From a virus: DNA of 21,202 nucleotides. The first letter of the stretch is position 1. Every line of letters begins with the position of its first letter. Position numbers and translations under genes: made by a program. Below the pieces are notes generated by a model, which worked only from the letters and a program-made list of their open reading frames with translations, was not told the origin of the DNA and ran no database searches. The DNA is taken from positions 1-21,202 of IMG/VR virus record IMGVR_UViG_3300020416_000070; one strand, 5' to 3'. This document shows, in pieces, positions 2,890 to 21,006 of the stretch.

Positions 2890-4176
2890 TTAACTTTTCC
2901 TTTTTACTACCTTATGTAAATCTTCTAATCTTGAAATAGCATCTTCAATGTGATTTAATGCATCATTGTTTTCACCAGCATTTAGTAAATCCATCATTTC
3001 TTCAAAGTCTTGCTTTATGTTTCCATTCTGAGCTTTCGCCATTCTGATAAGGTTTCTATCAGGTCTACCCTCAGGTAACATTTTACTTAATCTCATTGAA
3101 GATTCATTAGTATCATCAAAAATTGATTGCATTTTTAATGCTAAATCTTTACTTCCATTTACTTTTAAATCAAATGCGATAGCATCTAATGCATCTCTAC
3201 CATCATAAGAAGCTTCTTGAGAAGCAAATTGTCCTATCTCATCAGTACCAGGTGATGAATCATAATATGAAGAACCATATACACTATTCTTTCTCCATTT
3301 ATCATATTCAGGTGACATGATATCTGGCATATTAGGGTCTTTTCTTGGGTCTTTAGCAAAATCAGGATTATCTTCTAACATTGCGATTAATTTTCTTGCT
3401 TCAGAATGGAAGTTTGAATCTGTTAATGCTTCTACTGCTGCTTGACCCATTCTTCTTTGATATTCTTCTTTACCTAAGTTCTTTGGACTAATTCCGATTC
3501 TTTTTATTTTACTACGAACTGCTTTGTTTACTTCAATGTTTCCTGCTCTACCACCAGTCGAATCTTTTTGTGGTCCACTATCTTTAGGTTCTTCTTTATC
3601 TTTTTCACCTTTAAGTTTTTGTCCTAACTCTTTTGCGTATGCTACTGCATCTTCTTTACTATTGAATGATTTGTAATGATTATCAGCACGAGCATTATCC
3701 ATATCATCAACTTTTCCACCAAATACGGCAAATTTATTAGGGTCATCAAATAATTTACCTTTAGAAATTTGCATATAATTACCATCCGAATCTTCAAAAT
3801 CTTCAGTACCTTCCATTCCACCCAAATCAGCTGATGAGAATCCCATATCTTTCATTGTTGATTCGATATCTCTTTTAAAATCTTTAAACTTAGCTTTCTT
3901 AGGTTTATCTTTTTCACCGGCAGAAGAGTCACCTCCCTTCGCTGCCTTATCTTTTTTTGGTTTATCAAAAATATTTACTTTAGGTTTATCGGTTGGGTCT
4001 TTAACTGCACCATCCTTATCATCTTTTCTTTTTTCGTGAGTACCTGCTTTTATTGCAGCATCTCTTGCTGCTTTTGATTTAAATACAGAAGTTGTACCTG
4101 TTTCTTTACTGGTAGCAGTAAAAACATCTGCTTCAGTAATTGGTTTTAAATCTATTAATCCACCTAATTTTATCAT
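2890..4176 (-). CDS. 428-aa scaffold-like protein (positional analogue of T4 gp22)
   Basis: Placed immediately after the prohead protease, where T4 gene 22 (main scaffold) lies. It starts MIKLGGLIDLKPITEADVF. ITE15/A is a good candidate gp21 site after a leader-like helix. Next comes ATSKETGTTSVFKSKAARDA (21-40), an N-terminal module I recognise from marine phages, then a long lysine/aspartate/glycine-rich low-complexity stretch (about 48-90). The C-terminal third (about 300-428) is helical and acidic. The charge-rich composition fits a scaffold or internal core protein, but the protein is longer than T4 gp22 and shows no diagnostic motif. The ATG overlaps the protease stop as ATGA, implying translational coupling. 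Confidence 0.85.
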   Translation of the reverse strand: MIKLGGLIDLKPITEADVFTATSKETGTTSVFKSKAARDAAIKAGTHEKRKDDKDGAVKDPTDKPKVNIFDKPKKDKAAKGGDSSAGEKDKPKKAKFKDFKRDIESTMKDMGFSSADLGGMEGTEDFEDSDGNYMQISKGKLFDDPNKFAVFGGKVDDMDNARADNHYKSFNSKEDAVAYAKELGQKLKGEKDKEEPKDSGPQKDSTGGRAGNIEVNKAVRSKIKRIGISPKNLGKEEYQRRMGQAAVEALTDSNFHSEARKLIAMLEDNPDFAKDPRKDPNMPDIMSPEYDKWRKNSVYGSSYYDSSPGTDEIGQFASQEASYDGRDALDAIAFDLKVNGSKDLALKMQSIFDDTNESSMRLSKMLPEGRPDRNLIRMAKAQNGNIKQDFEEMMDLLNAGENNDALNHIEDAISRLEDLHKVVKRKS

Positions 4177-4757
4177 GATAATTCTGTTATTATTTCTCTT
4201 ATTAAATCGTGTGCTTTACAATAATCTCCACAAACTTCATTAACTTTAAGTTGTTTTGATTCGTTCATCGGAGTCATAAATGCACCATGTGTAGACGGGT
4301 TGGATACAAAATCCCAACCTATTAGTTCAAAATCATCACCAACAGTTACACCACCACCATTTCTTGGTTCTACTGAACCCATACCTCTTGATGAGATACC
4401 TAATAGAATGCCAGCTTTTAACAATTCTTTAAGAATGTTACCAGATGGCGTTGGTAGTATTTCAACAGTTCCCATCAAATCATCATTTTCCCAATGAATT
4501 TCTCTAATGTTGTGTGATACGTTCTTTAAATTTATTACAGAAGATTCTGGATGGTCTAACTCACCCAACGCTCTTCTTTCTTTTATGAGAGTTTCATATT
4601 TCTTAGCTTCTCTCATTAGAATTTCTTTAGGATAAACCCTTTCGTTTTGGTTAGGCGCTTCAGCTCTCTGTAAGATTCCTTTTACGATAGTTCTACCTGA
4701 TGAATCTTCGTTTATTTTACCTTCGAATAAATGAGTTTCTATAAGTAAATTTTTCAT
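4173..4757 (-). CDS. g21: Prohead core protease (gp21-like, U9/S78-type serine peptidase)
   Basis: Matures the prohead by cutting scaffold, core and capsid leaders. Recognised by the order of T4 gp21-like motifs: APNQNERVYPKEIL (34-47), the histidine motif LGELDHPE (H69), the serine motif GISSRG (120-125; S122/S123), and GWDFVSNPSTHGAF near 147-160, typical of herpesvirus-fold phage proteases. At 194 residues it is close to T4 gp21 (about 212). I chose the ATG at 4755-4757 rather than a TTG four codons upstream: the ATG has GGGGAG about 8 bases before it, overlaps the previous stop as TAATG, and starts MKNLLIE. The C-terminus overlaps the next gene as ATGA. Its likely substrates surround it, since many neighbours carry (I/L/V)xE tripeptides near their N-termini. 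Confidence 0.92.
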   Translation of the reverse strand: MKNLLIETHLFEGKINEDSSGRTIVKGILQRAEAPNQNERVYPKEILMREAKKYETLIKERRALGELDHPESSVINLKNVSHNIREIHWENDDLMGTVEILPTPSGNILKELLKAGILLGISSRGMGSVEPRNGGGVTVGDDFELIGWDFVSNPSTHGAFMTPMNESKQLKVNEVCGDYCKAHDLIREIITELS

Positions 4758-4942
4758 TATGCTCCCCAACTTCTACGTTTTTTAAATAATTCAAAAAATA
4801 TTGCTGAAACTTCTTGTCTGATAATCTTACGAATCTTATCTTCATCTTCGTTAGTTACCTCTTCATTGACTAAAGAAATTCCACCATATTTGTGGATTAG
4901 AATTTCTTCTTTAACAATTTGTTTCAACTTATCTATTTTCAT
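4757..4942 (-). CDS. 61-aa small prohead core-like protein
   Basis: Small protein immediately upstream of the protease, with its stop overlapping the protease ATG by one base. The N-terminus MKIDKLKQIVKEEILIHKYG is another amphipathic, glutamate-ended leader (VKE12). VNE27 and an acidic linker follow, then a helical tail with IRKIIRQEVSAIFFELFKKR. That tail motif recurs, from memory, in small proteins of marine T4-like phages next to gp21. If gp21 cuts after the leader, the remaining 30-50 residue helix would be a core peptide comparable to T4 gp67/68 products. No enzymatic motif is visible. Confidence 0.78.
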   Translation of the reverse strand: MKIDKLKQIVKEEILIHKYGGISLVNEEVTNEDEDKIRKIIRQEVSAIFFELFKKRRSWGA

Positions 4943-4945
4943 TTT

Positions 4946-5143
4946 TTAACTTTCTTTCTTTTCGCCTTTGCCTTTCCAAGCAGCATCGATTTTGTTAAAA
5001 AATGCTTTTTTCTCTTCATCAGACATTTGAGGAATTGATTTACCAGATTTTTTTAGTGCTTTTGCAAAAAACTTCTGATATTCAGTTTCTTCTCTCAATA
5101 CATCTTTGATGATTTCTTTTAATCTTTCCTTTGTTATTTTCAT
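4946..5143 (-). CDS. 65-aa small prohead core-like protein
   Basis: Begins MKITKERLKEIIKDVLREET, a basic-then-acidic amphipathic helix with LKE10 and LRE18 tripeptides. After it comes YQKFFAKALKKSGKS and EEKKAFFNKIDAAWKGKGE, a short helical domain I recognise as recurrent in marine T4-like phages, both as a separate small protein and appended to larger ones. The ATG overlaps the upstream stop by 4 bases and is preceded by AAAGGAAT. The role is probably a prohead core or internal peptide. No catalytic motif is present. Confidence 0.8.
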   Translation of the reverse strand: MKITKERLKEIIKDVLREETEYQKFFAKALKKSGKSIPQMSDEEKKAFFNKIDAAWKGKGEKKES

Positions 5144-5601
5144 TGGTCTAATTCCTTTATACTGTTAACTATATTAATTAACCTTTCCTTTATCTTATAA
5201 ATATGAGTATTTGTTCTTTTCCAATACTTGTCTTTGTTTAACTCATTCATAGAACGAATCTTATTGTACCATCTAAAAAACATCTCAACTTCGGCTAATT
5301 GATATTTTAATTCTTTTAATCCCAAAGCTAACTTATGGTTGGGAGTTTTTGTTTCATCATTTTTTAACTCTAACCATCTATTTACAGGTCTTTTTATCTT
5401 CTTACCCTCACCAACAATTCTATAACCCATTTGAGTAGCTATCCTTTTTCTTTTTTCTTTATCTTTTTTGGATTTTTTGTTTAGAAAAGCGTAAGGAGTA
5501 TCGAAACCATCTATATTTGCGGTTGTTGTGATTTCATCTAAATCCTCATCCATCTCTTCGACAAGATTACGAATATATTCTTTAAGCTTTGTTTCTAACA
5601 T
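5140..5601 (-). CDS. 153-aa head-region protein of unknown function
   Basis: A leader-like helix (MLETKLKEYIRNLVEEMDED, with LDE23) is followed by ITTTANIDGFDTPYAFLNKK and a lysine-rich region with RIATQMGYRIV. This 'TTANIxGxDTPxAF' module is one I recognise from marine phage structural proteins. The C-terminal half (about 75-153) is helical and basic, rich in K, E and W. The start lies 20 bases inside the upstream 291-residue gene. The position between portal and protease corresponds to the place of T4 genes 67/68. It may be a head protein that also carries a cleaved leader; no function assigned. Confidence 0.82.
   Translation of the reverse strand: MLETKLKEYIRNLVEEMDEDLDEITTTANIDGFDTPYAFLNKKSKKDKEKRKRIATQMGYRIVGEGKKIKRPVNRWLELKNDETKTPNHKLALGLKELKYQLAEVEMFFRWYNKIRSMNELNKDKYWKRTNTHIYKIKERLINIVNSIKELDQ
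5196..5203. promoter_or_regulatory. TATAAATA octamer upstream of the 65-aa gene
   Basis: TATAAATA on the plus strand (TATTTATA on the coding strand), 52 bases before the ATG at 5143. It lies inside the upstream coding sequence, so it is the weakest member of the set of similar sites at 6494, 8706, 11694 and 15768. Confidence 0.2.
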
Positions 5602-12203: not shown

Positions 12204-15200
12204 TTAGAAAAATATACCTAATATTTGATTAAGAGGTGCAAATGTACCTGTAAGTTTGAAAGTCTTTCCATTGTAAGTAAATACAATACCTTCATTTGGT
12301 ACTATCTTTTTAGCCCCTCCGATAGAGTTTAATCTTTGAAGTTCTAATTTTAGTTTTTGGATTTTCTTTTCATCACCAGATTTTCTTACATCTTTGATTG
12401 TTTTATCCAATTTCTTTTTCATATCTCTAATAGCTTTATCAGGATTTACAGTTAATGCGGAACTTACAAATTGTAACACTTCTGCACCTAAACCTAAGAA
12501 AATATCCTCAAATGGTCTAATATTATCTTTAGCTATTTTACTATGTTTTTCTTTATCAGTTTTCTTTGCCCAATCTAAAGTTTTAGCATCAACTATGTTT
12601 TTTCTATCTAACCTAAATTTCTTATCAAAGAAAGCCCATCTTTTAACTAATCCCATTTTGGTTTTGTTATCTAATGTAGTAGGTGATTTTTTATCTACAT
12701 AGTTTTCCCAAAAAGCTTGGTGATATTCTGCTACACCATCTGTATCTTTAAGATTATATTTCTTTTGTAATCTTTTTATTTTACCACTATATACAGATTT
12801 CTTTTTAGAAAGGTCTTGCGATTTTGGTAATTTAACAACCGGCGGTCCTTCTATTGTATATGATGATTGAACATTTTGATTGACTTGTTTAATCATACCA
12901 GCTAACACTCTAGCAGCTCCTTGATTCTCACCAATAGCTACACCCTCTTCATTATACTCCATTGTTCCGTGGAATACTAAGAGTGCTTGTCCATAAGGTA
13001 CTACATTAACAGATGTTGGATAGATTACCTCTAAGTTCATAAAACAAGCTCCACCTTTGAAAACCTTTTCTCTTTGTTTTTCCGATAACGAAGAGATAGC
13101 TTTAGATAAATCTCTCATAGCAAAGTTATATGCATCACTCAATCCTCCTCTACCTTGAAACTTATCCGATACTCCCTTTATATCTAAAGCATTCTCCCCT
13201 TTATTTTTAAGGTGTCCTTTATTACGAGCAGCAACCAATCGGTTATCTCTCCAACTGATAGCTAACGCTTGTCCATCAGTTTTTTCTCTTGTATTTTCTA
13301 ATGTACCATCAAGCGCTCTGTTTACAATATCTTTTAATTGTCCAAATGTAAGATTAACTTCCGAATCAAATGGGTGATTCATATGACCATAAGCTCCTCC
13401 TTCCATTATCATCTCTTCTTTAACAACTCTATCCTTTTTAAGTTTGTTGTGTAATTCACCACCCTTACCTTTGATATCTTTATCAGCCATTCTATAAGTT
13501 GGTGATTTAAAAAGTTTTACATATAATCTTTCTAAATATTCTTTTTTCTTTTCAGGTGATAATCCTTTAAATAGTTTATTTATTTTTCCTCTGTTTTTAT
13601 AAACATACTTTTTAAAATCCATATAAAAGAAATCATTAACTTCATTAATTGGGTCATACTGATACTCTTGATTTGAATCGGTATTGTTTCTTGCTTTTGT
13701 TAATCTTTTCTTAATAACCTTCATATCTTCTTTTGAAGGATAACCCAAAGTTTCATTCTTAGCTTTGGTTTTCTTTTTCATCTTATTGATGTATGCTCTG
13801 TAAACTGCAGCTTGTGATTTCTTACCCATCTCTTTAGCTCTTTGTTCCATAGCTACCGCAGCTTGGATTTTGTGTGCATGAGATTTACCACTACTCTTAA
13901 TCTTACTTACAGATTTTTTAGCATCATCAACTGTTGCGAACTTCAATCCTTTGATTGTTCCTTTTGGATTCTCATCGGTATATAAATCAGAATGTGAAGA
14001 TGATTGTCTATGTTGTCCTTTTTTTCTTGGGATTCTTGCTGCTTCCTTACCATCAAACTTATCTGCTTCTTTTGCTCTTAACGCTGGTAAAAATCTGAAC
14101 TTTGCTCTTTTTCTAACTCTTCCTTTTTTTCTTAATACATTTTTATGAACTACTTTAGCTTGTTGGATTGATAAATCTGATTTCTTTTTACCAGGAAATA
14201 AATCTTTCATAAACTCATCATAGACTTGAAGGTATGCTTTTTTGTATGCAATCTTTTTAAGTTTAGCAAGAGGTTTTCTTCTCTTCATCGTTCTTGCTCT
14301 TCTTCTTGCTATAGCGGCTCTTTTACCAGCCATCGCTGCTTTTCTTCTAAGTAAATCTGCAGGTCTTAGTTTACCTTTACTTCTTTCATCTAATTCCTCC
14401 TCACCCATTTTCATCAAACCTTTAGGTGGTTGTGCTAATGGATTCACCCCAAAACATCTTGTTCTAAATTGTTGTTCGGTTTCACCCTTCATTGGTCTAT
14501 CACAACTTTCTTCTAATTCAACTTTGAATCCTTCTTTCATTAGTCGAAAAGTTACAACTTTTTTACCATTGATAGTTGGCATCCCATGCTCATCTTTACC
14601 GATTGTTTTAATCACTACCTTTTTGTTTTTGAATCTACCCATTAGAATAGTATCACCAACCTTTACAGGTAACTTAATCATCTCAGTTAGTGATGCTTCA
14701 AACTCTTTCTCTAAATCCTTAGCTCCTTTTGCATCATCGGTTGATTGTTCCTTATCATCCTTTTCTATATCTAACTTTTTGATTACATCGTATCCTACCA
14801 TAGCAGCTTTACGAGTAACATGCTTATACCAATTAGAGTATGCACCACTTGAGTAGATATCAACTTGGTTGTTTGGAGTCATCGTACCAATTACACCAGC
14901 TGGGAAATATGATACTGCTGTTTGTGGTCCATCGGGATATTCGGGATGTTCATAGTAATCTTCAAACTTCTCATCACCAATCATATTAACTACGGTGTAT
15001 CCTAATTTAGCTGCTCTATCAGCTGCTACTCTTCTGAATGTTTTATAATTTGGTATAAAGAAGTTTGGTCCATCATCTACATCTAATCCATTTAGACCAC
15101 CAGTAGATATTTCCATCATATATTCTTCTATAGTTTCTTTTGGTACAAATAAACCTTCACTAAGTTTATCAGATACCATTTGGAATATAGTTTTGTTAAA

Positions 15201-15749
15201 CTTACCATACGCCCTATCTTTGAAGAACTTTTCTTTCTGGTCATCCGAACCCATTGATAATCCTTGTCTAACTTCAGTACCACTTATTGCTCCACCCTGC
15301 ATCGGTGCTACATAAAGGTATCCTCTATCTTCATATCCTTCGGTTGGCTTACCATCATACTTCTGAAAGTATTTGTGTGATAATCTACTAGCATCTTTTT
15401 GCCCTACAACAGTTACAAATGCCGTAGTATCTTTGTTAAATCTTTTTAGAACTTCTTGTGGATTGTATGGATTTTTGACTTGTACGATTTTGGATTTTGG
15501 TATTCCAAACATCGTTGTCATTATTTTTACTTTTTCTTTGAAGTTAAAAGGTGAACGACCTTTTTCTGTTTTGTTTGATGTACCTATGTACACATCTTTT
15601 TTTCCAAACTTTTTCTGAAGGTGTTGGAATGTTTTGAAGTGTCCTTTGTGCATGGGTTGGAATCTACCAACATAGACCACCACAGTCTTTTTGATTTTAG
15701 ATTCTTCCATAAGAATCTGTTCTGCTAAGAAATTGCTTAGTTGACTCAT
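12204..15749 (-). CDS. 1181-aa multidomain protein: adenylyltransferase, basic core, ligase-like domain
   Basis: The longest gene here. Visible order: leader MSQLSNFLAEQ (1-11), similar to T4 internal-protein leaders; cytidylyl/NMN-adenylyltransferase domain (about 21-198) with GRFQPMHKGH (28-37, HxGH) and ISGTEVR (155-161); a doubled alpha/beta unit (about 230-330); a short beta domain with VKVGDTILMGRFKNKK (362-377); a very basic Lys/Arg region (about 456-560); a helical linker; and a C-terminal nucleotidyltransferase (784-1181) with KTDG (K823), NLEVIYP (E907), EGIV (1153-1156) and FKLTG (K1165), matching ligase motifs I, III, IV and V. Candidate gp21 sites LAE10, LSE198/G, LTE356, LEE414, LDE455 and IME783/G lie at domain edges. 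Probably packaged and cut in the prohead; the enzymatic roles are inferred from motifs. Confidence 0.92.
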   Translation of the reverse strand: MSQLSNFLAEQILMEESKIKKTVVVYVGRFQPMHKGHFKTFQHLQKKFGKKDVYIGTSNKTEKGRSPFNFKEKVKIMTTMFGIPKSKIVQVKNPYNPQEVLKRFNKDTTAFVTVVGQKDASRLSHKYFQKYDGKPTEGYEDRGYLYVAPMQGGAISGTEVRQGLSMGSDDQKEKFFKDRAYGKFNKTIFQMVSDKLSEGLFVPKETIEEYMMEISTGGLNGLDVDDGPNFFIPNYKTFRRVAADRAAKLGYTVVNMIGDEKFEDYYEHPEYPDGPQTAVSYFPAGVIGTMTPNNQVDIYSSGAYSNWYKHVTRKAAMVGYDVIKKLDIEKDDKEQSTDDAKGAKDLEKEFEASLTEMIKLPVKVGDTILMGRFKNKKVVIKTIGKDEHGMPTINGKKVVTFRLMKEGFKVELEESCDRPMKGETEQQFRTRCFGVNPLAQPPKGLMKMGEEELDERSKGKLRPADLLRRKAAMAGKRAAIARRRARTMKRRKPLAKLKKIAYKKAYLQVYDEFMKDLFPGKKKSDLSIQQAKVVHKNVLRKKGRVRKRAKFRFLPALRAKEADKFDGKEAARIPRKKGQHRQSSSHSDLYTDENPKGTIKGLKFATVDDAKKSVSKIKSSGKSHAHKIQAAVAMEQRAKEMGKKSQAAVYRAYINKMKKKTKAKNETLGYPSKEDMKVIKKRLTKARNNTDSNQEYQYDPINEVNDFFYMDFKKYVYKNRGKINKLFKGLSPEKKKEYLERLYVKLFKSPTYRMADKDIKGKGGELHNKLKKDRVVKEEMIMEGGAYGHMNHPFDSEVNLTFGQLKDIVNRALDGTLENTREKTDGQALAISWRDNRLVAARNKGHLKNKGENALDIKGVSDKFQGRGGLSDAYNFAMRDLSKAISSLSEKQREKVFKGGACFMNLEVIYPTSVNVVPYGQALLVFHGTMEYNEEGVAIGENQGAARVLAGMIKQVNQNVQSSYTIEGPPVVKLPKSQDLSKKKSVYSGKIKRLQKKYNLKDTDGVAEYHQAFWENYVDKKSPTTLDNKTKMGLVKRWAFFDKKFRLDRKNIVDAKTLDWAKKTDKEKHSKIAKDNIRPFEDIFLGLGAEVLQFVSSALTVNPDKAIRDMKKKLDKTIKDVRKSGDEKKIQKLKLELQRLNSIGGAKKIVPNEGIVFTYNGKTFKLTGTFAPLNQILGIFF
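12207..13400 (-). other. Ligase-like KxDG nucleotidyltransferase domain (residues 784-1181)
   Basis: Starts with GGAYGHMNHPFD directly after a candidate IME/G gp21 cut. The lysine nucleophile motif EKTDGQAL (K823), then NLEVIYP (E907), EGIVF (1153-1157) and the motif V lysine FKLTG (K1165), keep ligase order. A 190-residue insertion between motifs III and IV is longer than in most RNA ligases. Could be a DNA or RNA ligase or an RNA-capping-like nucleotidyltransferase. Confidence 0.65.
14070..14384 (-). other. Highly basic region (residues 456-560)
   Basis: Lys/Arg dominates, including RRKAAMAGKRAAIARRRART and KKGRVRKRAKFRF. The composition resembles phage internal or DNA-binding peptides. 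It follows a candidate LDE455/R cut, so it may become a separate DNA-condensing peptide after maturation. Protein binding to packaged DNA is inference. Confidence 0.55.
15156..15689 (-). other. NMN/cytidylyl-adenylyltransferase-like domain (residues 21-198)
   Basis: HxGH-type nucleotidyltransferase signature GRFQPMHKGH (28-37) at the first beta-alpha junction, and the second conserved motif ISGTEVR (155-161), which fits the ISxTxxR motif of NadM-type NMN adenylyltransferases. A GxSN(K) segment at 56-60 and the VVGQKDA segment (114-120) fit the Rossmann-like core. The candidate cut LSE198/G marks its end. NMN adenylyltransferase is the best family guess; phosphopantetheine or cytidylyl substrates are alternatives. 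Confidence 0.65.
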
Positions 15750-15904: not shown

Positions 15905-17278
15905 CTATATTAAATAGTTAGAAGCTAATCTTTTTAGATTATTTTGATTCTCTCTTTTTGATATTTTGTAGTTATAAAATAAATTTAATAAAACTTTATA
16001 GTTTTTTTCTAATATTGGTTTTATATTTTTCATCCAAATTAATTTTTCTTCTTCTGTTTTATTTACAAGCTTAATTACCTCATCAAATACCATATCCATT
16101 CTTTTTTGTATATTTGGTTCTAAATCATACGATTCATCTATGAATGGTTCAAATGTTTCAAATCCCATTCTTTTCAATTCTTTTAAAGTTCCAAAATTAC
16201 CAAATACAATAAATGGATGATTCTGTCCAAGTGCCTTTACTACCTTTTCTGATATGTAAAATTCATCTTCTAAAAATGATGTTTCTGATATAAAACTAAA
16301 CATTGAATCCTCATAAACACTAGCATCTTCATACATTATACCATATAGAGATTCTAAATCTTCAAAATCATAAAACTTCTTATCATTATTTATTTGTAAA
16401 TCTAAAATGTATTTTTTAAGTTCTGTAAAATCTAATAATTCATTTTCGTGTATATTTGGAATTTCCTTTAAATGTTTTTGGTTATCATTTATAGTAAAAT
16501 CATATGTAACAATATTATTATCTATTAAGTTTAATTGATTTAGCTTTGCTAAAATATACAAGCGATGTGTTCTTAATCTACGATTTAGACAATTAAAATC
16601 ATATTTTTTTGGTTCAATCTTATAATCCAAATGAACTTTATGAAACTCTTTTGCTTTTTTATATTTAGAGTATTCTTCTCCTTTTGTTTTCCAAACCCAA
16701 TGATTATGATTAAATTTTATTTTTTGAGAGATATTAAATTTTTTACAAAAAGTATCATACCACTCTTTTTGATTATATCCAGCAAATGAAAATATACATT
16801 TTTTAGTTGGTATATTATATTCATGTAATTTTGTATGTAACATTTTTAAAGGTATTTGTTCTATAATACCTTCCCAACAATAATCTATGTGAATCACAAA
16901 GTTTTTATTTTTTTTAAGTGCATCTATAACTCTATATGGAATTAAATCAATAGTTGTATTTCTATTATCGCCAGGAAAAGATAAATCACTTCCACCAAAC
17001 ATATCTATTTGATAAAATAGTGGTTCATCTTTGTATTTATCTAATACTATATTATTATCATCAAAAATATCATAAAAGAATAAATGCTTTGTAGTCCATT
17101 TAGTATTTCTTGCAGGATTGTAAACCCAAGTAGCTATACCCTCAATACCAATATTTTCTTCATAAGCCATCTCCCACAAAGTTTCACTATCTAAACTTTT
17201 ACTAAGAGAGGATAATTTTGAAAAATCAAAAGAGTTTATAAATAAATCATCAAATACATAAGTAAATACTAAATTCAT
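15905..17278 (-). CDS. Glycosyltransferase-like protein, tandem paralogue A (457 aa)
   Basis: Paralogous to the next gene upstream. Shared pattern: a start with a hydrophobic beta-alpha core, a middle YDFNCLNRRLRTHR (226-239), then VTYDF (257-261), SFISETSF (328-335) and YISEKVVKALGQNHPFIVFG (341-360), followed by a GTLKELKRMGF segment. The E-x-x-F, S-E-K, HPF layout resembles the nucleotide-sugar-binding half of fucosyltransferase-type (GT10) enzymes. I would call it glycosyltransferase-like rather than assign a donor. It probably decorates a phage or host surface sugar with the other genes in this block. The ATG overlaps the upstream stop by 4 bases. Confidence 0.75.
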   Translation of the reverse strand: MNLVFTYVFDDLFINSFDFSKLSSLSKSLDSETLWEMAYEENIGIEGIATWVYNPARNTKWTTKHLFFYDIFDDNNIVLDKYKDEPLFYQIDMFGGSDLSFPGDNRNTTIDLIPYRVIDALKKNKNFVIHIDYCWEGIIEQIPLKMLHTKLHEYNIPTKKCIFSFAGYNQKEWYDTFCKKFNISQKIKFNHNHWVWKTKGEEYSKYKKAKEFHKVHLDYKIEPKKYDFNCLNRRLRTHRLYILAKLNQLNLIDNNIVTYDFTINDNQKHLKEIPNIHENELLDFTELKKYILDLQINNDKKFYDFEDLESLYGIMYEDASVYEDSMFSFISETSFLEDEFYISEKVVKALGQNHPFIVFGNFGTLKELKRMGFETFEPFIDESYDLEPNIQKRMDMVFDEVIKLVNKTEEEKLIWMKNIKPILEKNYKVLLNLFYNYKISKRENQNNLKRLASNYLI

Positions 17279-18675
17279 AATAGGAAATCCAAATTAGTTC
17301 TTGCTTTTTGAAAATACCACATCAAATTTCTGTTGTATTTAACCATATCAAAGTTTTTAAGGTGATTGTAATTATGCTCTATGATTTCTTTACAATTGTA
17401 CATAAATGTTTCTCTTTGTTCAGTTGTTAGTTGTGATAAATTTATTATTTCTTTCAAAACCATTTTATATCTTTTTTCAGGATCCTCTTCACAATCGTAA
17501 GTTTCATCAACATAACCAGTTTCACCAAATGTTTTAAAACCCATATTGTGTAACCAAGTTAAAGTTCCACTTGTTGATAGAACTATAAATGGATGTTGAT
17601 GTAATATTGGTTTTATAACTTTTTCAGAAACATATCCTATTCTCTCCGTCTCATAAAAGAAGGATTCAGCTACTACTGTAAATAGTGTATCTTTATATGG
17701 AATATCAGTTTCCATACCCTCTCCTCTAACATCCCAAAGTCTTTCATAATCTATTGTTTTTTTAGGAGCTTTTTCAATTAAATCTTCTAGTATTTTCCAA
17801 TACCTTTGAAACTTAGGACTATCCTGCTCAAACCATTGTTCCATTTTAATCCAATTGTTTTTTATATGATTTACATCTTCGTAACCTTCATGTAGATAAA
17901 AGTCATATGATACATTATTATTTTCTATTAAATCTAAATAGTGTAAGTCACATAAAAGTTGTGTTCTATGAGGTTTTTGTTCTCTAGTCAATAAATTAAA
18001 TGATTTTTTTCTACCTACATTAAAATTTTGCTTATACAAAGTTTCATTTGAAAAATTATCGTAATGTAATTTATTATGAAAAAATGGAATGGACCATAAA
18101 TATGGGATAACATTAACACACTTATCAGTTCCATATTTTTCTTTATAATCTAAGGCATATTCTGAAATTCTGTAATTTGCATGTATCAAAAAAGTTTTAT
18201 CTAATTTTAGCTCCTTTTCTAATAACCAATTATTTAGATTGTTAAAACTTTCATAAGGTAAGTATCCTTCAGAACTAGCATTTATAATTAAATATACATT
18301 TGGATTGTATTTTAGGTGTTCAATAATTTTATATGGTATTTTGTTAAATACACTATCGTTATCAAAAGAATCCGCAGGCCATGAATATATGTTAATCTGA
18401 TAAAAATATAAAGTATCTTCTCTTTGATTTGGATTTTCTAAAAAATCAAAAGTAGGTATTATCTCAAAGTTATCTTCAAAATAACCTATGTTACTCTGAT
18501 AACATTGGGGTTGTGTTTGTTCATTTTGTCTAACAAAATTATCTATATAATCAAATTGGTTTTTAAAAAAATCAGTTTTGTTAAAATAACTTGATTTATT
18601 AAAATCCATACAATTAATACCTAATTGTTTTCCAAAAAAATAATCTTCTAAAAATACTATATCTTTAAGCTTCAT
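17275..18675 (-). CDS. Glycosyltransferase-like protein, tandem paralogue B (466 aa)
   Basis: Same architecture as its neighbour: KSFNLLTREQKPHR (224-237), VSYDF (255-259), FTVVAESFF (332-340), YVSEKVIKPILHQHPFIVLS (348-367) and a GTLTWLHNMGF segment. Sequence identity to paralogue A appears modest and limited mainly to these motifs, implying an old duplication or separate acquisition of the same family. The donor-binding residues around the SEK and HPF motifs are kept in both, so both may be active. N-terminal MKLKDIVFLED happens to look like the prohead leaders; I do not treat it as one. It overlaps the upstream PYR-domain gene by 11 bases. Confidence 0.75.
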   Translation of the reverse strand: MKLKDIVFLEDYFFGKQLGINCMDFNKSSYFNKTDFFKNQFDYIDNFVRQNEQTQPQCYQSNIGYFEDNFEIIPTFDFLENPNQREDTLYFYQINIYSWPADSFDNDSVFNKIPYKIIEHLKYNPNVYLIINASSEGYLPYESFNNLNNWLLEKELKLDKTFLIHANYRISEYALDYKEKYGTDKCVNVIPYLWSIPFFHNKLHYDNFSNETLYKQNFNVGRKKSFNLLTREQKPHRTQLLCDLHYLDLIENNNVSYDFYLHEGYEDVNHIKNNWIKMEQWFEQDSPKFQRYWKILEDLIEKAPKKTIDYERLWDVRGEGMETDIPYKDTLFTVVAESFFYETERIGYVSEKVIKPILHQHPFIVLSTSGTLTWLHNMGFKTFGETGYVDETYDCEEDPEKRYKMVLKEIINLSQLTTEQRETFMYNCKEIIEHNYNHLKNFDMVKYNRNLMWYFQKARTNLDFLL

Positions 18676-19213
18676 AATATAACTCTGGGTATTCTACTAA
18701 TATGTGTATTCCACCTTTTGATAATGCATTTTTGTATGCTGGTAAAATCTTATCAGGTGAATCTAATTTTACAATTGTTGAGTTTGTTACCATCTGTTCA
18801 AATGCATCGGTATAATCTGCTTTATGTTGATGACCAGGGTCTAATGGTTTATCACTTCCCTTACCAACTCTAACAATTACATTTGGTTTCCACTCACCAT
18901 CAGACATTGCCTCTAATTTATCTAAGTGATTTATTAATTGATTTGCTGCGCAGATTAAAAAATCCCATCTTGGATAAAATGAAACTACTCTATGACCTGT
19001 CATACTAAGACCTACAGTCATTCCCATTTGTACCTCTTCCATTACTGGTGTCTCAATCATCCTTTCCTTTGGTAATCCTTCAATTGTTTTACTCATTGGG
19101 TTACCATAATAAACTATCTGTTGTCCAATAAAAATAGTAGATGGGTCATCCATACAAAGTTTCATTGATTCTGTAAGTGCATCTACATATGGTGTGAATT
19201 CTGGTTTACTCAT
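18665..19213 (-). CDS. Stand-alone TPP pyrimidine-binding (PYR) domain, E1-beta-like (182 aa)
   Basis: Resembles the N-terminal domain of pyruvate/2-oxo acid dehydrogenase E1 beta. The stretch ETPVMEE (54-60, E59 in the place of the cofactor-activating glutamate), GMTVGLSMTGHRVV (64-77), FLICAANQLINHLDKLEAMS (85-104) and VRVGKGS fit this family. A normal E1 beta is about 320-340 residues and adds a C-terminal transketolase domain, absent here. Thiamine-diphosphate enzymes need a partner PP domain, which may be encoded farther right, outside this window. The gene sits among sugar-modifying genes, so it could help make a branched or carboxylated sugar precursor. Follows the radical SAM gene by 4 bases. 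Confidence 0.8.
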   Translation of the reverse strand: MSKPEFTPYVDALTESMKLCMDDPSTIFIGQQIVYYGNPMSKTIEGLPKERMIETPVMEEVQMGMTVGLSMTGHRVVSFYPRWDFLICAANQLINHLDKLEAMSDGEWKPNVIVRVGKGSDKPLDPGHQHKADYTDAFEQMVTNSTIVKLDSPDKILPAYKNALSKGGIHILVEYPELYYEA

Positions 19214-19217
19214 AATA

Positions 19218-20378
19218 TTAATTTTTTATATTTGTATAAAGATGATTCCAATTTGATTGAATGTGTATTCTATCTCTCCACTTATCAGCTTTTTTAATAT
19301 ACTTTATAAAATCTTTGTGGTTTATATGTTTTGGATTTGATACATCCATTCTCATCATATCCTCATCTGTTAAATGTTGCCATTGATTTATATATCCAAA
19401 ATACATAACTACTTTTTTGGAATCTATATCATCTGTTATTCTATGTTTAAAAATATCATATACCAACTCCAGTGCGAGTTCCATTTCTTTATAGTTATCA
19501 TTTTGTACTACAAATGAAATTCTAAAAAAATTTATACTTTTTATTGTTGATATAAATTTTAGATTTTTTAATAATGTTTCCCAATGACCCCCTAATCTTG
19601 TTTTGTTTTCATAAGTATCTTTTGTACCAGCATCTATGGAAACATCTACTATATCAACATATGGTTGAATGGCTTTCATTAAGTTCCAATTCTTTTCATT
19701 AAAAAGTTTTCCATTTGTAATTAGTTGTACACTTTTTAATTCAGGCCATTGAGAAGGTTGAAAATTAAATAAAAATTTTCTAAATGATTTTGAAGCGAAT
19801 GGGTCTCCACTACCTGTTATTAATATTTTTTTACAATTTGCTGAATATGTTTTATTTATAAATTCAACAATACCATCAATTTCTTTTACTTCATCAGATT
19901 TTGCCATTATAGTATCTACTCTACAAGATGGACATTTAAAATTACAACTCCAATCGAATGTAAAATTAAGTGAGCCAGGAGTATTTTTTACATAACAATC
20001 ATCATCTATTTTTATATTATCAAAATCGTAGTGAGGAAAATCTGTATCATCTCTTTTTACAAAAATTCCTCTATCAGTAATTCCTGTTGAAATTAATGAA
20101 TTTAAATGTGGACATATTTGCTTATCACAATATGTGTATTTACCATCTAAAATAGATTGCCTTATCTCTTGCGCAGCTTCACTATTCCAAACATCATAAT
20201 CATATTTACCATTTTCATCTTTAGGATATACTAACTCTTTTTTTAACCATGTACCACAACATAATGTAGCTTTATCTTTAAACATTTCCATATGTTTAAA
20301 TGGTATCATACACACATGATTTTTCAAAAGCTCTTCTTCTGTGTATAAGTTTTGAGTATATACCTGTCCTTTAATCAT
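19218..20378 (-). CDS. Radical SAM protein with N-terminal SPASM-like cysteine region (386 aa)
   Basis: The radical SAM cluster motif is CNFKCPSC (C145, C149, C152; CX3CX2C), after the beta strand GSLNFTFDWS. The ITGSGDPF segment (about 183-190) resembles the GGEP motif that binds the SAM amino group. The N-terminal 100 residues contain C23, C40, C41, C84 and C89 in the arrangement CMIPF, LCCGTW, WNSEAAQEIRQSILDGKYTYC, ICPH. This strongly resembles the SPASM auxiliary-cluster pattern, which normally lies after the radical SAM barrel. Substrate unknown; neighbours suggest sugar or peptide modification. Its ATG lies 8 bases inside the SGNH-like gene. Confidence 0.88.
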   Translation of the reverse strand: MIKGQVYTQNLYTEEELLKNHVCMIPFKHMEMFKDKATLCCGTWLKKELVYPKDENGKYDYDVWNSEAAQEIRQSILDGKYTYCDKQICPHLNSLISTGITDRGIFVKRDDTDFPHYDFDNIKIDDDCYVKNTPGSLNFTFDWSCNFKCPSCRVDTIMAKSDEVKEIDGIVEFINKTYSANCKKILITGSGDPFASKSFRKFLFNFQPSQWPELKSVQLITNGKLFNEKNWNLMKAIQPYVDIVDVSIDAGTKDTYENKTRLGGHWETLLKNLKFISTIKSINFFRISFVVQNDNYKEMELALELVYDIFKHRITDDIDSKKVVMYFGYINQWQHLTDEDMMRMDVSNPKHINHKDFIKYIKKADKWRDRIHIQSNWNHLYTNIKN

Positions 20379-21006
20379 ATTTTGGTTGTTTTAACAAACC
20401 CAATTCTTCTATGTTATCTATGATTCGATTTGCTATAATTTTATGTGTTCTAAAATTAAAATGCCTATCTTTACTATCAACTATATATTCATCTTTAAGT
20501 GTCATATCAAAAAAACTATATTTGCCATCAAACTTCATACTTATATTTTTGATTTCACTTGGTATTTCTATCATATCTTCTGGCCAATCCCAATGTAAAA
20601 ATCTAATAGGTATATTTTTTCCATTACAATAATCCAAAATTTCTTTATACATACTGACTTGTGTTTCCATAGATAAATTTCTACCATCAGTCATATTTCT
20701 TGTAAAGTTAGTTGTTTGTATTATTACTAAATCTGTAAGAGTATCAATAGCTTTTAAAACGTGTGCATGAATACTCCATGTACTACCACCATTGTTTATA
20801 TCAACCTTTGATTTTCTACCAAAGTAATTACTTACTATAGTTGCAAATCTCCTATCTATAATTTTTTGGTAATCCCAAGAACGGACTGAGTTTTCATCAA
20901 ATCCATGTGTACCTGGTGAGGATGGGTCTACATCACTGTCATCAAAAAGATGTAAACTTTGACCCCAAGTATAAGAGCACCCACCAAATACAATATTTCT
21001 AATCAT
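20371..21006 (-). CDS. SGNH/GDSL-like hydrolase-fold protein (211 aa)
   Basis: Block I motif FGGCSYTWGQSL (S11 as candidate nucleophile), NNGG (71-74) as block II, VIIQTTNFTR (N100) as block III and KDRHFNFRTHKIIAN (D180, H182) as block V follow the order expected for SGNH esterases/acyltransferases. The family hydrolyses or transfers O-acyl groups, often on sugars, which fits its location next to epimerase and glycosyltransferase-like genes. Substrate unknown. The ATG overlaps the stop of the upstream epimerase-like gene as TAATG. Confidence 0.72.
   Translation of the reverse strand: MIRNIVFGGCSYTWGQSLHLFDDSDVDPSSPGTHGFDENSVRSWDYQKIIDRRFATIVSNYFGRKSKVDINNGGSTWSIHAHVLKAIDTLTDLVIIQTTNFTRNMTDGRNLSMETQVSMYKEILDYCNGKNIPIRFLHWDWPEDMIEIPSEIKNISMKFDGKYSFFDMTLKDEYIVDSKDRHFNFRTHKIIANRIIDNIEELGLLKQPKYD

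Follow-up and report, generated by a model that had tools for sequence, protein, structure and literature searches.

What could a T4-like phage gain by joining an adenylyltransferase, several small modules and a ligase-like domain in a single chain? The question is raised by a gene in the IMG/VR virus record IMGVR_UViG_3300020416_000070, of which we analyzed a stretch of 21,202 nucleotides (positions 1 to 21,202; the window), a fragment of a T4-like marine virus of bacteria. The open reading frame (ORF; 15749..12204, minus strand) starts with ATG and encodes 1181 amino acids. As a preliminary description of this DNA had it, this is one intact protein: the ORF is open, and an identical second copy was found by an IMG/VR scan in a 102,940-base contig (L002). 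The portal (PF07230), large terminase (PF03237) and gp21-type prohead protease (PF03420) are encoded on the same strand, and the gene is a real ORF placed amid T4-type head genes. We infer that its product is probably a head-cargo polyprotein, which a T4-like leader would target to the head and the prohead protease would cut, its modules being packaged, injected and active in the host. The preliminary description had likewise suggested that the phage packs and injects an enzyme set cut free by the prohead protease. Within that interpretation it is the T4 internal-protein type of leader and the protease-type sites at module edges that have gained support, from insertion ends, permuted modules, standalone genes that begin with an LxE leader, and the capsid protein of L002.

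Leaders and LxE sites

The gp21 protease of T4 cuts after L/I-x-E (PMC9026906; this and the other papers are cited for the parts of their text available to us). In the L002 contig the propeptide of the capsid protein gp23 contains LME/G, LAE/T, LLE/G, LLE/N and LDE/A (a solidus marks the presumed cut), and LxE is kept at these places in six other capsid proteins, except for the second place in L163. From these propeptide sites we infer a protease specificity for LxE. The modules of the polyprotein end in tripeptides of the same kind.

Relatives were taken from IMG/VR scans, keeping the best 80 of 222 and the best 80 of at least 583. The set comprises 152 ligase-bearing ORFs (at least 300 or at least 330 matched ligase residues), in which some viruses appear twice, with 100 distinct ligase sequences. 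The 93 closed ORFs reduce to 49 non-redundant proteins of 413–1846 amino acids, their starts taken as the first ATG after a stop; the 45 proteins over 600 amino acids were used for insertion tests and the count of architectures.

The polyprotein starts with a short leader, MSQLSNFLAE/, that ends in L/I-x-E with the glutamate at residue 10, as in internal proteins of the T4 type. The targeting sequence of T4 IPIII is 10 residues long (PMC9026906), and the ipI leader of T4, read from its sequence, starts MKTFKEF and has ITE/A at residue 19. The relatives agree: in 47 of the 49 proteins (L042 and L080 lack a proper start and were left out) there are 35 distinct leaders, all with [LIV]xE in the first 16 residues and 24 with glutamate at residue 10. 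Several modules also occur as single genes. The preliminary description proposed looking for relatives of this sort, and they were found for the ligase, the small beta module and the cytidyltransferase. Four standalone ligase genes start MIRL.., with LNE/ or LSE/ followed by VLLKE/ or VLLNE/ directly before GGAYGH, and another in a huge phage starts MKFLKSYEEFLNE/NLILE/GGSYGH. Cytidyltransferase genes at loci fetched with the DUF6267 of P-RSM6 have a site within the first 18 residues in 30/30 distinct starts, against 13/161 in the other ORFs of these loci (closed ORFs only, as also for DUF6267 below). In the Pelagibacter phage HTVC008M the small beta module, a P-loop kinase and the cytidyltransferase are adjacent separate genes; the kinase starts MIPFILKE/GLYDPGIF.. 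and the cytidyltransferase MKTLKE/. The nicotinamide mononucleotide (NMN) adenylyltransferase (NMNAT) of S-SCSM1 starts MKSFLQFLKE/A, which resembles a capsid-targeting sequence.

Packaging is backed indirectly, by analogy with separate cyanophage relatives analyzed by virion mass spectrometry. The S-SCSM1 NMNAT was found in virions (PMC9602691), the S-CREM2 virion yielded three unique peptides of a cytidylyltransferase, and NMNAT-like proteins are reported from virions of S-CBWM1, S-SZBM1 and S-SCSM1 (PMC10665884). Could the polyprotein instead be a late multifunctional enzyme that stays unpackaged in the cytoplasm, its leader resembling those of T4 by accident? The virion data concern relatives only, and both studies allow for carry-over of highly expressed phage protein (PMC9602691, PMC10665884), which weighs against packaging. 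Yet a site occurs in every distinct leader, most often at residue 10, the gene stands among those for terminase, portal and protease, and the relative detected in S-SCSM1 virions bears such a leader itself. We therefore regard a cytoplasmic enzyme as highly improbable.

All six sites named in the preliminary description (10, 198, 356, 414, 455 and 783) are present, and to these we add LME15, MKE406, INE703 and VKE778. Its caution that LxE is common is fair for the polyprotein taken alone, where 11 [LI]xE compare with 8.3 by shuffling, near chance. For this reason the case rests not on the count but on comparison with relatives, whose insertion ends answer the caution. We compared homologues that differ by an insertion of at least 30 residues, giving 43 events with no boundary 5-mer in common. 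[LIV]xE lies within four residues of both ends in 22 of these strict insertions (0.8 expected), and at 61 of the 86 ends (10.2 expected); in 3000 trials with shuffled end windows the count averaged 22.6 and never exceeded 36. At the same ends the controls [LIV]xD and [LIV]xK were found 13 and 16 times (11.1 and 21.5 expected), and xxE with a residue other than L, I, V or M in the third position before the cut 40 times (30.1 expected). With looser filtering [LIV]xE is at both ends in 50 of 99 insertions (1.4 expected), and LxD in none.

The sites are also placed where cutting would separate modules. [LI]xE stands directly before the ligase in 140/152 ORFs and, counting distinct contexts, in 68 of 74, whatever stands upstream; of the other six, four have KELLLM, one is truncated by the end of its contig and one contains an unread residue. 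Within 44 ligase domains [LIV]xE is rarer than by shuffling (112 vs 171.5), and within 43 adenylyltransferase domains slightly so (40 vs 48.5). In aligned rows, sites of the polyprotein are kept in place at 10 (24/28), 198 (25/29), 356 (28/29), 778 (31/32) and 783 (32/32). The relative L089 lacks the module near site 703 (residues 702–771 of the polyprotein), the left end of the gap being at INE703 and the right end seven residues short of VKE778. Taken together, these comparisons of sequences support sites of the prohead-protease type at module edges.

These data bear on a second alternative, that the chain is packaged and injected uncut as one polyvalent protein, with only the leader removed and the inner LxE tripeptides serving as flexible linkers. 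Large multidomain injected phage proteins have been described (PMC5512222), and a strict site is missing at some edges. Mere linkers, however, would not be expected to prefer [LIV]xE at insertion ends where LxD and other xxE are near chance, nor to leave it depleted within the ligase domain (the difference in the adenylyltransferase is small), and modules that are also single genes have LxE leaders of their own. An uncut protein is in our view unlikely. Still less credible, to the point of being very nearly dismissed, is the suggestion that LxE at the edges is the trace of a recombination site in the DNA, or of shared linker codons, and not a protease site. A cassette edge is by definition a recombination joint, but LxE also ends the leaders of standalone genes and sits in the capsid propeptide, where a joint is needless, and the flanking residues vary widely between contexts.

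A number of observations weigh against a processed head cargo. The virus is uncultivated, and its cuts and virion fragments are predictions. Residue 10 is aspartate in three leaders and glutamine in one; in T4, an aspartate at this position prevents processing of the leader (PMC9026906), although these four have a further site at 15 or 16. DUF6267 genes have an LxE leader in 0/14 distinct starts, and the small beta gene of HTVC008M lacks one. The reversed tripeptide ExL is also raised at the strict insertion ends (37/86, 12.6 expected), for which tandem sites of the kind KE/GLLTE/ may account. Relatedness among the sequences inflated an initial breakpoint test, which was set aside; its strict form gave 59 observed vs 42 by shuffle (reached by 1 of 2000 shuffles), with ExL at 63 vs 42. 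Glutamate richness explains part of that result, and we have therefore relied on the insertion test. Sites 414 (5/18 rows), 455 (12/28) and 703 (12/22) are poorly kept in place. Some edges of the polyprotein have no strict site, such as that before residue 572. Conversely, the ligase domain of the polyprotein contains [LIVM]xE at 890, 941 and 1008, with LSE890 kept in 22/32 rows and IGE941 in 31/32. Lastly, the four contexts with KELLLM before GG come from nine loci (L062, L067, L073–L076, L078, L080 and L081), of which eight have the nearest [LIV]xE 18–20 residues upstream and the ninth has it 113 residues upstream. These KELLLM/GGAYG loci, having lost the site before the ligase, offer a natural test case for processing. 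Set against these points stand the features seen directly in the sequences: the modules, the site statistics, the leaders, the protease gene and a likely protease consensus in the capsid protein.

Enzyme modules and their shuffling

Residues 25–162 match CTP_transf_like (PF01467, E 2e-9), with HKGH at 34–37 and ISGTEVR at 155–161, both near-invariant in aligned relatives; the HxGH adenylyltransferase with ISGTEVR recognized in the preliminary description is thus borne out. A full-length structure model has a mean predicted local distance difference test score (pLDDT) of 58, and served only for edges and the adenylyltransferase match. In a Foldseek search with it, NMN and nicotinic acid mononucleotide adenylyltransferases take ranks 1–25 in the best 50 of 438 rows (best NadM, E 6.1e-4), the first phosphopantetheine adenylyltransferase being at rank 26. 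From sequence and model, the N-terminal domain is of the NMN-adenylyltransferase type with a HIGH-type fold, and its substrate is putative.

Residues 199–356, previously called a duplicated unit, have pLDDT below 50 throughout and are unfolded in the model. Relatives gain or lose them as one block; their duplication is weak, the score of the two halves being reached by 5/1000 shuffles. The small beta part and the basic region that had been proposed are both visible in the model, the former with low confidence (strands at 367–393, pLDDT about 40–60) and the latter as helices. The beta module takes an N-terminal position in other polyproteins among the relatives, and the basic helical module is preceded by LDE/ both here and in L008, despite a different upstream module there. 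Residues 572–667 are 72–74% identical to parts of the proteins of three cyanophages.

The C-terminal domain looks like the nucleotidyltransferase of RNA and DNA ligases, judged from sequence and model, and its activity is predicted. The lysine of its KTDG is K823, as previously noted, and K, D and G are invariant in 64 aligned ligase-domain sequences (K40, D42 and G43 of the alignment). E370-G371 and K382 are near-invariant in the same alignment; we take these to be ligase motifs IV and V. Residues 784–1181 have no PHROG match at E 0.01 and none in Pfam above the cut-off. PSII_Pbs31 in Pfam is a weak match below it (E 0.0024), and the best profile match in solved structures, ribosomal protein eS6 (E 0.0026), was taken as chance.

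A model of the ligase module found RNA ligases as the best nine of 47 Foldseek rows (E 0.38–1.1), six of them chains of one ligase. VIA-align against ligases gave Z about 4, equaled over the same region by the unrelated GMP synthase (4.5) and RlmCD (4.3); these, and DnaK (5.1, over another part), were taken as background. The Z is weak, and the ligase reading of the model depends on the register of the KTDG pairing. The glycine of KTDG (model residue 43) pairs with residue 95 of the P. pacificus RNA ligase (entry title K92A), 102 of T4 Rnl1 (title K99M) and 173 of a nick-sealing RNA ligase from a eukaryote (title K170M); in each case the partner lies three residues beyond the lysine named in the title. 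In T4 Rnl2, the trypanosome editing ligase and the African swine fever virus ligase the partners are residues 38, 90 and 154, which likewise fit the lysine numbers of these enzymes. Residue 43 is the alignment start in some unrelated rows too. Because residues 36–43 are of low confidence that start means little, and it is the partner residue that counts.

Membership of the ligase module in DUF6267 (PF19782) was considered and rejected as unproven: there is no Pfam match, and hhalign gave E 0.31 with a score of 16.8, where controls reached 22.6 with shuffled columns and 18.6 when reversed. The best local matches fall at KxDG and EGxV..K. DUF6267 has KWDG, is encoded by its own gene next to the cytidyltransferase in P-RSM6, and occurs also in HTVC008M; the two may be remotely akin.

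Several domains of disparate predicted activity are thus found in one chain, and the relatives vary them. Using simple anchors, the 45 longer proteins have 24 ordered architectures, with the ligase in 45 and the adenylyltransferase in 44. L047 is permuted, with the small beta module at residues 14–66 and the adenylyltransferase only after residue 520. Pfam recognizes extra cassettes of PolyA_pol, HD, AAA_33/Zeta_toxin-type P-loop kinase, GNAT and DUF5661 in relatives; a ParB-like motif and zinc ribbons were read by eye or anchor only. No embedded peptidase was found by Pfam in the polyprotein or in the 13 relatives searched. The 'cytidylyltransferase like protein' of Microcystis phage Mel-JY01 (WWT39297.1) is an adenylyltransferase-ligase fusion of 639 amino acids. 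The jumbo phage Atu_ph07 of Agrobacterium (L170:4254-6590) encodes a protein of 778 amino acids in which the same P-loop kinase is surrounded by units joined at LNE/, VTE/, LTE/ and LNE/; this may be an independent cargo polyprotein. The huge phage LR756508 has a 915-amino-acid version (L172:2587-5331) with a ParB-like unit before the adenylyltransferase, and a P-loop kinase match elsewhere (449640-450131).

Feature map and neighboring genes

The modules are listed in Table 1 with the presumed cutting enzyme.

Table 1. Modules of the polyprotein and the protease gene, in window coordinates
Feature	Coordinates	Strand	Evidence
Whole polyprotein ORF, 1181 amino acids	12204..15749	-	Identical copy in L002
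Leader, residues 1-16, MSQLSNFLAE/QILMEE, capsid-targeting type, sites E10 and E15	15702..15749	-	Leaders of relatives; T4 IPIII length
Adenylyltransferase module, residues 17-198, putative NMNAT/NadM type, end LSE198	15156..15701	-	PF01467; Foldseek NadM/NMNAT
Module 199-356 (previously the duplicated unit), end LTE356	14682..15155	-	Whole module gained or lost among relatives
Small beta module, residues 357-414, end LEE414	14508..14681	-	N-terminal in other polyproteins; separate gene in HTVC008M
Linker module, residues 415-455, end LDE455	14385..14507	-	Residues 419-454 absent in L011
Basic helical module, residues 456-571	14037..14384	-	Modelled helices 463-565
PRKKGQ module, residues 572-703, end INE703	13641..14036	-	Cyanophage matches; permuted in L047 and L059
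VNDFFYMDF module, residues 704-778, end VKE778	13416..13640	-	Residues 702-771 absent in L089
Spacer, residues 779-783, EMIME/, main site before ligase	13401..13415	-	Junction counts; E783 invariant in alignment of relatives
Ligase-like nucleotidyltransferase module, residues 784-1181, KTDG with K823	12207..13400	-	Invariant K, D, G; standalone genes
Prohead protease, gp21 type, presumed cutting enzyme	4173..4769	-	PF03420 Peptidase_S77, E 2.2e-27

Near its likely start the protease has MKNLLIE/THLFE/, which resembles LIE-9 of T4 gp21 (PMC9026906) and hints at self-processing. ORFs starting MANSKLLKE or MANSNLLKE in L162–L165 are presumed prohead scaffolds, with many glutamate-rich xxE, for example in L163 and L164. 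In the head region of the window, ORFs 1132-2277, 2890-4176 and 5140-5601 have the early sites LKE, ITE and LKE, and ORF 8285-8689 matches phrog_7595, around PDVNE; these may be further cargo. The terminase has a chance LKE near its start too, and single leaders therefore prove little. The upstream block, 15905-21006, encodes a radical SAM protein (PF04055), a fragment like a transketolase pyrimidine domain (PF02779, below the cut-off) and two proteins of 457–466 amino acids that have no Pfam match and look related by eye.

Proposed function and comparison with known systems

We envisage that the 10-residue capsid-targeting leader would carry the whole chain into the prohead core, where a gp21-type protease would cut after [LI(V)]xE between modules. 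This would free an NMN-adenylyltransferase-like enzyme, a ligase-like nucleotidyltransferase and several small proteins, many of them basic; all would stay with the DNA and enter the host alongside it. Relatives would vary the cargo by gain, loss and permutation of cassettes that tend to span from site to site. The core cargo pairs an adenylyltransferase with a ligase, and the optional cassettes are polynucleotide-kinase-like, poly(A)/CCA polymerase, HD, GNAT and ParB-like; this set fits a role in the early repair of nucleic acids and nicotinamide adenine dinucleotide (NAD). It suggests that the cargo helps at the start of infection by forming NAD and sealing broken nucleic acid; other phage enzymes are known to restore NAD in the face of defences that deplete it (PMC12774641). 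A link between NAD-capped RNA and end repair is a guess.

A wider reading, which we hold tentatively and at somewhat less than even chances, is that shuffled-cassette polyproteins are a delivery device widespread in T4-like and huge phages. An enzyme flanked by LxE would be packed, freed in the head and injected. The load would usually comprise a NAD-making enzyme and a nucleic-acid ligase, to which kinase, poly(A)/CCA polymerase or HD cassettes could be added, and would serve for repair in the first minutes of infection against host defences, whether these cleave RNA or DNA or destroy NAD. Cutting of polyproteins by a viral protease is characteristic of many RNA viruses. If our reading is true, the freeing of cargo enzymes from one tailed-phage gene would be a new use of a head-maturation protease. 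The cargo of uncultured phages could then be read from sequence, each LxE-bounded cassette being a candidate injected protein, and phage heads could be loaded with proteins by a rule found in nature. Against RNA-cutting and NAD-depleting defences one could directly test the enzymes proposed as injected, those for NAD synthesis and ligation, the kinase and the CCA/poly(A) polymerase. A literature search that was short on subscription journals turned up neither a cassette polyprotein processed by a prohead protease nor a paper on the Mel-JY01 fusion.

How does the proposed system compare with known ones? The Mel-JY01 protein is like it in fusing adenylyltransferase and ligase, with a leader and LxE before the ligase; it differs in that only two modules are recognized, and is annotated by name alone. 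The cyanophage NMNAT/cytidyltransferases (S-SCSM1, S-CREM2; PHROG 395/3041) are of the same superfamily and found in virions, but that of S-SCSM1 is a separate gene unfused to a KTDG domain. In the heads of phiKZ, 201phi2-1 and SPN3US many proteins are cut after glutamate in a short motif by a gp21 relative, with redundant sites in propeptides; the processing described in the cited parts of PMC9026906 is, in contrast, mostly propeptide removal, with no shuffled enzyme cassettes. Polyvalent proteins share disparate enzymatic domains in one chain that are predicted to be packed and injected, and their authors already drew the analogy with RNA-virus polyproteins (PMC5512222). Their release is instead ascribed to peptidase domains within the chain, and the cited parts of that paper describe no array of cassettes bounded by prohead-protease sites. 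Closest in manner of working are IPI–IPIII and Alt of T4, which have a leader of 10–19 residues cut by gp21 after L/I-x-E, are packed in the head and in many cases ejected (PMC9026906). Each of those is a separate protein, whereas here the sequence predicts one chain with sites between modules. By analogy, the polyprotein is a system that would work like the internal proteins of T4, and is akin in spirit to the polyvalent proteins.

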